A stretch of DNA of 64,000 nucleotides, from positions 29,961 to 93,960 of IMG/VR virus record IMGVR_UViG_3300010371_000002; one strand, given 5' to 3'. The translations under genes were made by a program, and so were the position numbers. A model generated the notes under the pieces. That model saw nothing but the letters and a program-made list of their open reading frames with translations, did no database searches and was not told where the DNA came from. Origin of the DNA: a virus. This document shows, piece after piece, positions 3,473 through 50,932 of the stretch. Positions within the stretch are counted from its first letter, which is position 1, and each line of letters starts with the position of its first letter.

Positions 3473-3504
3473 CAAAGCCCAGGAAGATCGCTTCCTGGGC
3501 TTTG
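3473..3504. terminator. 14-bp perfect hairpin between tail genes
   Basis: CAAAGCCCAGGAAG and its exact complement flank an ATCG tetraloop. The hairpin sits between the tape-measure stop (3530) and the next tail gene start (3465). The plus-strand side is followed by a T-rich run. On the minus strand only a short T-run follows, so it could be a partial terminator or an mRNA processing or attenuation site that lowers expression of the distal tail gene. Confidence 0.65.
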
Positions 3505-48493: not shown

Positions 48494-48723
48494 GGCTTCT
48501 CGTTCAATGGACCGATCTTCATCCAGTACTCGCCGCCGAGGGGCGAAATCGGAATCACGTTCAAATTGGCGCGGACGGCTCGGTAAATCACGCCATCGAA
48601 AAGGGCGGATGTTCCGCTGTCGAACATCAAGCCCGCTTCCCAGATCTGCAGTACGCTCATTAGGAGGCCGCGCAGGCGCAGAATTTCAGATCTCGCGGAC
48701 AAACCCAGGGTATCGGTATTCAC
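48490..48723 (-). CDS. Hypothetical protein (GTG start)
   Basis: The product has 77 residues starting at GTG 48723, overlapping the dam stop (GTGA). Helical first half (SEILRLRGLLMSVLQIWEAG), then a small beta part. Not recognised. Confidence 0.55.
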   Translation of the reverse strand: MNTDTLGLSARSEILRLRGLLMSVLQIWEAGLMFDSGTSALFDGVIYRAVRANLNVIPISPLGGEYWMKIGPLNEKP

Positions 48724-49577
48724 GTGATGCCCTTATCATCAAATAGGCTCGTCTGTCCTGTCGCTTCATCGGACTGTGGCGGCGCATAATTCATAATCAC
48801 GAGGATCGGCGCGGCTTTGCGGCCCTCCGAGGCGCGGGCCTTGGCACGCGCCTCATCCATCTCAATCAAGCGCATATCGCTATACAGATCGAGTATCGCC
48901 GGATGGTCGTTGACCGTCAGTAGGAAGCGCCCTTGTATGCCGTGCAGCGTCTCTGCGAGCCTCTGATGGTCCTGGAACCCAAAGGCTTCGGCATAGCCGC
49001 ATGTGTCCAAATAAGGCGGGTCGCAAAAGAAAATCGTGTTCGACTGGTCGTAGCGGCTGATCAATTTCTCGAAGTCGGAATGCTCCACGAACACACCGCG
49101 CAGCCGTTCGAATGCGGGCTGGAATTGCTCAAGGCTCTTATTCAGGAATAAATCGCCACGCGATTTATTCCTGAAGCCAAACGACGCGCTTTGGCTTCTG
49201 GAAACGTCCGCGCCGAAGCTCATTTGGATGAGCAAATAGAGCCACACAGCCCGCTCCATTTCGTCGCTGCCGTCCGGCTTTTGCTGCCTCAATTCCATGA
49301 ACATTTCACGGCTATAGAGGTGCTGGTGAACGCGCTCCAAAAGCTCGGCAGGTCGCCATTTCAGCACGCGCCACAGGTTCACGAGGTCGCCATTCGCGTC
49401 GTTGATGACTTCGACGGGATGAGAGGGTTTGCCGAATAGAACCCACGCCGCGCCCGCAAATACTTCGCAATAGCACTCGGCATCGGCAGGCAAGAGCGCG
49501 ATGATTTCAGAGCGCAATTTGCTTTTTCCGCCTACCCACTTAATGGGACTGTCGAGCATCGGTTCAGCGGTATTCAT
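48720..49577 (-). CDS. DNA adenine methyltransferase (D12 class)
   Basis: The product has 285 residues. It has the D12-class FxGxG-region equivalent SPIKWVGGKSKLRSEIIALL and catalytic FFCDPPYLDTCGYAEAF. DPPY is the adenine-N6 active site. It ends with GQTSLFDDKGIT, a plausible sliding-clamp motif. It likely protects phage DNA from restriction or marks its replication, together with the C5 enzyme next to it. The start overlaps the next gene by 4 bp. Confidence 0.88.
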   Translation of the reverse strand: MNTAEPMLDSPIKWVGGKSKLRSEIIALLPADAECYCEVFAGAAWVLFGKPSHPVEVINDANGDLVNLWRVLKWRPAELLERVHQHLYSREMFMELRQQKPDGSDEMERAVWLYLLIQMSFGADVSRSQSASFGFRNKSRGDLFLNKSLEQFQPAFERLRGVFVEHSDFEKLISRYDQSNTIFFCDPPYLDTCGYAEAFGFQDHQRLAETLHGIQGRFLLTVNDHPAILDLYSDMRLIEMDEARAKARASEGRKAAPILVIMNYAPPQSDEATGQTSLFDDKGIT

Positions 49578-50932
49578 GCGGACTCCGATCCGTACAAACC
49601 CTCAGCAATCCGCTGCGCCATCAGGGAGGGAAACCCACCGCCAATAATCGTGCAAGCCAGGTTCGCCCTATCAGGGAATTTGTACCAACCCGGGACCGAC
49701 TGAAATCGCGCCAAGGCACGGACGTTCATTTTCACGACACGCCCGCATTCCAGCCATGCCCGCGCAGGACGCTTCGCGGAGGATGCCGCCAGGGTGAAGA
49801 ACCATTCTTCACCCTGGCGGCATGTCAGCGTTTCCCCATTCCCATTCGCCTGCCCATCAACGATAAAGGCGCGAGGGACATTGGAATTGCCGTTCCCGTT
49901 CGCCAGGACGGTGAGCCGATGTTCACCGTCCTGGCGAACGGGCATTGTGCGCTGATCCTGACCGTGAACGATAAAAGCGCGGTGCGCGATGGTTCCCTTC
50001 CCCTGCGCGGCTGTGATAGTCCCTGCGTGACTATCACAGCCGCGCACATTCGCATCCGTGCCACTCACAAGAAAGGCGGAAGGTGTTGAGGAGGGTCGGC
50101 GCATTACGCCGGTGTCGATCGTGATGGACGGTTGATCATCGAAACGCACCGTCGTTCCACGAGATGCGTTTCGATGATCAACCAGGAAAGCCCGATTGTT
50201 CCGCAAAGCGTTCGTAGCCGCGACGGTAAATGCCGGGTCGATAGCGCGGCTCGCCGCGCTATCGATCATCGTTTTATTCGTATTTCCTCCACCTATGAGG
50301 AAATCACCGAGATCCTGGGGAAGTCGGGCAAGCTGCCACGGGGCGAACTCGCTTTCCGGCAGCGTATCCAGCAGATCTTCGATGGCCTCATACCAGCCAA
50401 CCCATCGAACCGGCGCCGGAAGTGAAGGCACCAGGTCATCCAGACAGGCGCGGAGGATGAGCCTCTCCCGAGTTTGCGGGACTCCAAAATCTGCGCTATT
50501 TAAATGTTGGTAGTGCACGAAATAGCCGCGATCCTCCAGGCACTCCAGGATCATGCGGAACGATTGGAACGTCCGATATCCCCACACGTTCTCCAGGCTG
50601 AATGTCGCGGGACGGATGATATCGATGAAACTGCACACGGCGCGTGCGGCGCTCAGGTCACCTTCGCACTCGCGCCCGTTCGTATTGGCCCGTGATGCGT
50701 TCTTGCAGCTCGGCGAGGCGTGACCGTGATCAATGGGTTCCATGCGCCGCCAGTCGATATCCTCGACTCGGGACGTGAAGCACGGATGGTTAGCGAAGTT
50801 GGCGCGGTAGACGTCCGCAATCGCCGGTTCCATCTCCACCGCCCAGCGCGGTTCCATGCCAGCCGCGATGAAGCCGCAGTCAGCAATCCCGCCGCCCGAG
50901 AAAAGCGTTCCGAATGTCGGTTTGTTGGTCAT
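49574..50932 (-). CDS. C5-cytosine DNA methyltransferase with repeat-filled target domain
   Basis: The product has 452 residues. Motifs in order: SAM-binding LFSGGGIADCGFIAAG, catalytic HASPSCKNAS (PSC instead of the common PPC; the nucleophilic Cys is kept), SLENVWGYR, GVPQTRERL, and C-terminal RALARFQSVPGWYKFP with IIGGGFPS. Between them, where target recognition occurs, are five units of about 35 residues of the form RAF(I/L)V-DGx-(variable)-TxTA. Each unit contains a long perfect inverted repeat in DNA. The enzyme probably methylates cytosine in phage DNA, and the repeat domain may give several specificities. Confidence 0.85.
   Translation of the reverse strand: MTNKPTFGTLFSGGGIADCGFIAAGMEPRWAVEMEPAIADVYRANFANHPCFTSRVEDIDWRRMEPIDHGHASPSCKNASRANTNGRECEGDLSAARAVCSFIDIIRPATFSLENVWGYRTFQSFRMILECLEDRGYFVHYQHLNSADFGVPQTRERLILRACLDDLVPSLPAPVRWVGWYEAIEDLLDTLPESEFAPWQLARLPQDLGDFLIGGGNTNKTMIDSAASRAIDPAFTVAATNALRNNRAFLVDHRNASRGTTVRFDDQPSITIDTGVMRRPSSTPSAFLVSGTDANVRGCDSHAGTITAAQGKGTIAHRAFIVHGQDQRTMPVRQDGEHRLTVLANGNGNSNVPRAFIVDGQANGNGETLTCRQGEEWFFTLAASSAKRPARAWLECGRVVKMNVRALARFQSVPGWYKFPDRANLACTIIGGGFPSLMAQRIAEGLYGSESA
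49783..50265. repeat. Array of five long perfect inverted repeats within the C5 methyltransferase gene
   Basis: IR1: arms 49783-49801 and 49805-49823 (19 bp, 3-nt loop). IR2: 49895-49914 and 49923-49942 (20 bp, 8-nt loop). IR3: 50004-50021 and 50029-50046 (18 bp, 7-nt loop). IR4: 50130-50148 and 50165-50183 (19 bp, 16-nt loop). IR5: 50238-50250 and 50253-50265 (13 bp, 2-nt loop). All arms are exact complements. Centres are 95-132 bp apart, one per protein repeat unit. Confidence 0.93.

Follow-up and report, generated by a model that had tools for sequence, protein, structure and literature searches.

Introduction

The C5 cytosine DNA methyltransferases of the Bacillus phages SPR, phi3T, rho11 and H2 carry tandem target-recognition domains (TRDs) with several specificities, and their recognition modules can be added, lost or exchanged (PMC8936443 and work cited there). 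Palindromes in coding sequence are found in the mitochondrial genes of Nematomorpha, where they are perfect or absent. This pattern was read as conversion of one arm by the other and not as selection for pairing, and template switching was proposed as the origin of the palindromes (PMC6649704). In genes of Saccharomyces cerevisiae, template switching homogenises the arms of inverted repeats and inverts spacers of 2-5 bp, and a single event can replace up to five residues (PMC8604942). The same process can both create and maintain hairpins (PMC8794818).

Here, we analysed a phage C5 methyltransferase gene in which each of the tandem TRD units contains a perfect inverted repeat, together with its homologues. 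The original prediction for this DNA had reported the repeats and named three possible roles for them: regulatory hairpins or cruciforms, binding sites of the enzyme, and template switching. The results suggest that a fold-back copying error helps rewrite the recognition modules of the enzyme.

Results

A C5 methyltransferase with five tandem recognition units

The window, the whole 64 kb stretch of DNA that was analysed, belongs to a 94 kb phage record encoding a portal protein, a large terminase, a helicase, a serine-type integrase and a Gam-like gene. The C5 gene and its TRD array are organized as follows.

49574..50932, minus strand: C5 cytosine DNA methyltransferase, 452 aa (PF00145, E=5e-30; phrog_116 DNA methyltransferase, E=6e-47)
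49763..50305, minus strand: TRD array of five consecutive units (33-38 aa each), flanked by catalytic motif VIII and motif IX
50305, minus strand: start of TRD unit 1, DFLIGGG
50194, minus strand: start of TRD unit 2, RAFLVDHR
50080, minus strand: start of TRD unit 3, SAFLVSG
49981, minus strand: start of TRD unit 4, RAFIVHGQ
49873, minus strand: start of TRD unit 5, RAFIVDGQ; the array ends at RAWLECG, 49762

The motifs SPSC, ENV, QTRER, WVGWYEAI and ALARFQS are found where expected for a C5 methyltransferase; the window enzyme reads SPSC, the usual form being PPC. The catalytic half ends at WVGWYEAI and motif IX is ALARFQS, which sets the borders of the array. Five units between motifs VIII and IX correspond to the several modules of the SPR/phi3T type. 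The nearest distinct homologues of the gene are about 45% identical, and the number and content of TRD units vary between homologues. The array is made of exchangeable units of about 33-38 aa that probably confer several DNA specificities. For L047, a homologue with a single unit, a deep-alignment structure model was confident (pLDDT 93.8) and matched M.HhaI and M.HaeIII (HhaI structures, E about 1e-20), which is consistent with the unit sitting at the TRD position. The 12-row AlphaFold model of the five-unit array in the window had low confidence, with pLDDT <50 over residues 175-401.

A search of a phage collection with the window TRD gave no match, and no further copy was found in 386 genomes of the host phylum of one bacterial carrier. 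A plasmid search with a homologue returned partial matches of low identity only. Two unusual architectures were seen in other contigs: an open frame of 1887 aa encoding a circularly permuted C5 methyltransferase, in which the TRD and motif IX-X half precedes motifs I-VIII (L094, 206-5866), and two tandem C5 methyltransferase copies that apparently share one open frame (L101, 3884-5872).

Each unit of the window gene contains one perfect inverted repeat

The following inverted repeats (no strand assigned) were found in the array.

50238..50265: perfect inverted repeat in unit 1, arms 13 bp, loop 2 nt
50130..50183: perfect inverted repeat in unit 2, arms 19 bp, loop 16 nt
50004..50046: perfect inverted repeat in unit 3, arms 18 bp, loop 7 nt
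49895..49942: perfect inverted repeat in unit 4, arms 20 bp, loop 8 nt
49783..49823: perfect inverted repeat in unit 5, arms 19 bp, loop 3 nt

All arms are 100% complementary, the centres lie 95-132 bp apart and each TRD unit has one repeat. The number, the arm lengths (19, 20, 18, 19 and 13 bp) and the spacing given in the original prediction were all confirmed. It had also described a regular array; the rhythm of one repeat per unit is real, but a single fixed place within the unit is not. In units 3-5 the centre of the repeat coincides with the turn that joins the VR.. strand to the T(I/V/L)xA strand, whereas in units 1-2 it lies upstream of this turn. When the gene was shuffled 3000 times between synonymous codons, with protein and codon usage fixed, repeats with arms of at least 10 bp occurred on average 0.097 times and at most twice, against the five observed.

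Only two other perfect repeats with arms of at least 13 bp are present in the 64 kb window. One lies in the gene of a D12-class adenine methyltransferase, described below, and the other is intergenic.

3473-3504, no strand assigned: terminator-like intergenic perfect repeat, arms at least 13 bp

Outside the two methyltransferase genes, no coding perfect repeat with arms of at least 13 bp was found in the window. The remaining 30 kb of the record contain four further long repeats, at gene boundaries or overlapping a gene end; the other long repeats of the record are thus placed as terminators are. In a low-GC phage (L015, 2646-2833), a C5 methyltransferase was seen to have two long inverted repeats, of 17 and 19 bp, just upstream of it.

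Repeats are enriched in the modular TRDs of the family

Homologues were collected from viral contigs and genomes, and their repeat counts were compared with those of synonymous-codon shuffles. The TRDs of 62 distinct homologues (27 kb) contain 30 perfect repeats with arms of at least 11 bp where 0.35 would be expected; for arms of at least 12 bp the count is 25, against 0.09 expected. The same 62 genes have none outside the TRD (40 kb; 0.29 and 0.10 expected at the two thresholds). A first set of 51 genes had given a similar picture (27 repeats, 0.3 expected), and members found later added repeats, including arms of 22 bp (L219) and 18 bp (L231). Both the window gene and its family therefore have an excess of coding palindromes beyond codon-level chance, of the kind described in Nematomorpha. 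This bears out the earlier proposition that selection on the protein alone would not account for the repeats.

The enrichment is limited to modular TRDs. The TRDs of 128 ordinary C5 methyltransferases contain no repeat (0.15 expected), which rules out a general trait of C5 TRDs. At the loci of the family, the density is about one repeat per kb of TRD and roughly one per 33 kb of other coding DNA (25 repeats with arms of at least 12 bp in about 820 kb). The longest arrays (600-800 nt) have the highest density, 3.65 per kb, and those of 300-400 nt have 0.33 per kb. Elsewhere in phage genomes, PAPS-reductase-like genes (phrog_424) in L008 (1245-1277) and L235 (1655-2770) were each seen to carry a coding palindrome of 13-14 bp.

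Within the family, 17 of the 62 homologues have at least one repeat, L024 and L027 having four each, and 45 have none. The repeats are therefore not a required element, and the idea that every unit keeps self-complementary arms does not hold: relatives gain and lose them. Nor are the 30 repeats all independent, since those of L007, L022 and L008 are shared by descent.

All the repeat-bearing records used derive from metagenomes, and an artefact of amplification or assembly, or an effect of protein or codon composition, has to be considered. We regard it as scarcely credible. The palindromes lie in frame and cluster in a single domain, and composition is excluded by the codon shuffles and the same-gene controls. 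A separate contig (L017/L177) is 100% identical to the window across the region, and homologous hairpins occur in independent contigs and samples, which makes an assembly artefact unlikely.

Stems are perfect or absent and share no sequence

Every codon phase is represented among the 30 repeats of the family (15, 8 and 7). Their place within the unit varies, loops measure 1-16 nt, and they have no common sequence, in agreement with the earlier statement that the arms are not copies of one element. Stems are either perfect or absent. Beside the 30 perfect stems of at least 11 bp, imperfect stems of any score of at least 8 numbered 4 against 4.45 expected, with G-U pairs scored as mismatches; the TRD family, like the Nematomorpha genes, shows no surplus of imperfect repeats. 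This character of the repeats points to template-switch (fold-back) mutagenesis.

Insertion of mobile palindromic elements in frame, in the manner of Rickettsia palindromic elements, would also place palindromes in frame in coding DNA, and the unit of L219 looks longer than its homologues. The hallmark of such elements, a shared sequence inserted at many sites, is not what we see, because no consensus unites the arms of the family. Repeat-bearing units are mostly as long as their repeat-free homologues, indicating that nothing was inserted. We consider this origin very improbable.

The stems might instead be kept by selection on nucleic-acid structure, as regulatory mRNA hairpins, cruciforms or binding sites of the enzyme. 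They are very strong and far from random, and in two homologous units arms and loops of similar size occupy one place with different sequence. However, position, phase and sequence are all variable, most homologues (45/62) are stemless, and imperfect or G-U stems, which structural selection would tolerate, are not in surplus. One homologue, L180, has also lost two outer base pairs of the stem seen in L007. These sequence patterns appear to disfavour both the regulatory hairpin and the enzyme-binding site of the original prediction. RNA-hairpin regulation was dropped as the main explanation, and structural selection in general seems unlikely.

We also asked whether repeat-bearing units had lost their conserved EP-type proline, which by eye looked like a systematic scar. 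Anchored on the T(V/I/L)xA motif, the loss was not significant (p=0.47), and this candidate was abandoned.

Relatives differ in spacers, arms and whole units

Comparison of related genes showed how the repeats change. In one group of close relatives, L007, L022, L180 and L200 read GGCGCGAGC-GCCATT-GCTCGCGC, whereas L008 reads GGCGCGAGC-AATGGC-GCTCGCGC. The 6-nt spacer of L008 is thus exactly inverted, changing the residues AI to NG; such an inversion is a recognised mark of template switching. L007 and L008 agree at 25/26 positions of the arms, 0/6 of the spacer and 64/72 of the flanks, making this the one clean case of exact spacer inversion between conserved arms.

In several pairs divergence is concentrated in the palindrome. 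Between L024 and L035, identity is 81% both in the catalytic part and around the last unit (58/72 positions of its flanks), but in that unit the arms of the 16-bp L024 palindrome match at only 18/32 positions. The corresponding values are 15/24 for the arms, 0/3 for the spacer and 53/72 for the flanks in L027 versus L010, and 12/22, 0/2 and 50/72 in L024 versus L005. L021 versus L010 lacks this concentration (arms 17/24, flanks 41/72), and the three positive pairs are few cases, some between distant relatives.

Palindromes have also formed repeatedly at one site. In a set of four homologous E(S/T)SxME units, the palindromes of L021 (12 bp), L027 (12 bp) and L219 (22 bp) coincide in position but not in arm sequence, and the unit of L010 has none. 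Among close relatives, TRD units are exchanged, gained or deleted as blocks with nearly unchanged flanks. Of the three roles first proposed, template switching is the best supported, by the spacer inversion, the perfect-or-absent stems and the differing palindromes of homologous units.

Proposed mechanism

Recurrent short-range template switching in the modular TRD units, with the products retained through redundancy or because new specificities are favoured, is in our judgement the probable origin of the palindromes, though far from an assured one. During DNA synthesis, a short quasi-palindrome within a unit would be the place where the nascent strand folds back or moves over to the complementary strand. 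One arm, as donor, would be copied into the other before the polymerase switches back, leaving a perfect inverted repeat in frame. The repeat so formed would act as a hot spot for more switching, which could restore the match between the arms or flip the spacer and would each time replace several adjacent residues of a recognition unit. In the catalytic half of the gene, changes of this size would be purged. They could survive in the TRD array, where single units may be redundant (neutral retention) or where new or lost specificities may be favoured against host restriction (adaptive retention). We infer that TRD arrays collect switch events because diversifying selection acts on their units or because the units are redundant. 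Since ordinary C5 TRDs diversify without enrichment, tolerance of change may be too little to account for the concentration; redundancy among units, or a unit sequence that is itself a special hot spot, may also be required. Among the homologues collected, no relative of the window gene was close enough to show how its five repeats arose.

Alternatively, the phage could promote fold-back copying, or inversion of arms and spacers, in its TRD units to obtain new methylation specificities, a programmed diversification likened in function to a diversity-generating element that works without reverse transcription. Such a programme would fit the near restriction of repeats to recognition modules, the alteration of two TRD residues by the L008 inversion, and the richness of the longest arrays. 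Yet no dedicated enzyme or element was found, and known replication errors combined with selection would suffice; we judge it distinctly unlikely. A diversity-generating retroelement proper is poorly supported, as no reverse transcriptase (PF00078) was matched in this record and seven other repeat-bearing records, eight possibly fragmentary records altogether.

A perfect repeat in the neighbouring D12 adenine methyltransferase gene

The original prediction placed the repeats inside the C5 gene, which is correct, but they are not confined to it: besides those of the homologues, one lies in a second methyltransferase gene, which shares 4 nt with the C5 gene at the 3' end of the latter.

48720..49577, minus strand: D12-class N6-adenine DNA methyltransferase, 285 aa (PF02086, E=6e-30; phrog_56, E=9e-72)
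49141..49175, no strand assigned: perfect inverted repeat, arms 16 bp, loop 3 nt, encoding FRNKSRGDLFLN in a variable region

The D12 gene of another phage (L178, 4404-4436) has the same hairpin at 72% DNA identity; no C5 methyltransferase homologue was detected in the 8.8 kb of L178 examined. The two stems differ by one covarying T-A/C-G pair and few other changes. This covariation is the best evidence for selection on structure, but synonymous conservation of the stem was not significant (8/11 versus 74/169 codons, p=0.11) and about 89 other D12 homologues lack the stem, the TRD stem being restricted to the window and L178. Conversion of one arm by the other and structural selection account for the covariation equally. 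A general trait of D12 enzymes was ruled out, since 91 D12 genes showed no general enrichment (4 repeats with arms of at least 11 bp, 1.7 expected). A second repeat of 14 nt, 93% complementary, overlaps the hairpin (49168-49203), and the overlap suggests nested fold-backs.

Palindromes were also noticed in methyltransferases of the PF01555 type. In L013 (4513-6180), a gene of this N4/N6 type downstream of a C5 homologue has repeated SPPY / GQIxAMPxGDV units and two 14-bp perfect coding palindromes; the phenomenon may thus extend to another array-type class of methyltransferase. In L035 (5348-5375; the same gene occurs in L216), a PF01555 methyltransferase beside a C5 homologue has a spacerless 14-bp perfect palindrome between conserved motifs.

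Discussion

Our analysis ties a known but seldom visible mutation mechanism, template switching at inverted repeats, to the fast-evolving DNA-recognition modules of phages. If this is true, modular methyltransferases would be a natural record of how new specificities arise by jumps of several residues and not by single substitutions. They would also offer a system for testing whether template switching is adaptive or neutral, with a phenotype, the methylated sequence, that can be read by sequencing. Perfect coding palindromes could then serve as a sequence signature for finding recently rewritten modules.

In a stronger version, fold-back template switching would have evolved as a diversifier targeted at the recognition modules of methyltransferases, enabling changes of methylation specificity. 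The self-complementary architecture of the units would make each module a hot spot, where several residues could be rewritten at once, or loop residues flipped, in frame and without a reverse transcriptase or recombinase. We hold this version to be fairly unlikely.

The original prediction could name no known counterpart for this layout. Each component is known, from Nematomorpha, from yeast and from tandem-TRD phage enzymes; their combination was not reported in the open-access literature searched. In outcome, variation targeted to a recognition domain, the locus is like diversity-generating retroelements, the shufflon and hsdS inversion. It differs from them in that no reverse transcriptase was found and in that its repeats are mutually different and flank a few nucleotides, not whole domains.

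As in the SPR/phi3T type, the window gene encodes a phage C5 methyltransferase with several short recognition modules between conserved blocks. Its units belong to another sequence family (RAFLV...VRxxDxP..T(V/I)xA) and number up to about five per enzyme, and its multispecificity is putative. To our knowledge, coding palindromes have not been described for the Bacillus phage enzymes.

The likeness to Nematomorpha lies in perfect repeats within functional coding sequence, with both arms translated, dynamic gain and loss, and no imperfect surplus. The mitochondrial palindromes reach 284 bp and are scattered over the mitochondrial genes (PMC6649704), whereas those of the phages measure 11-22 bp and are confined to recognition modules. 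With the yeast events, the phage repeats have in common exact inversion of a spacer and recurrence at one site, and probably also the homogenisation of arms and replacement of several residues. In yeast, the events are spread over 39 unrelated genes, while the putative events of the phages are concentrated in one domain of one gene family.
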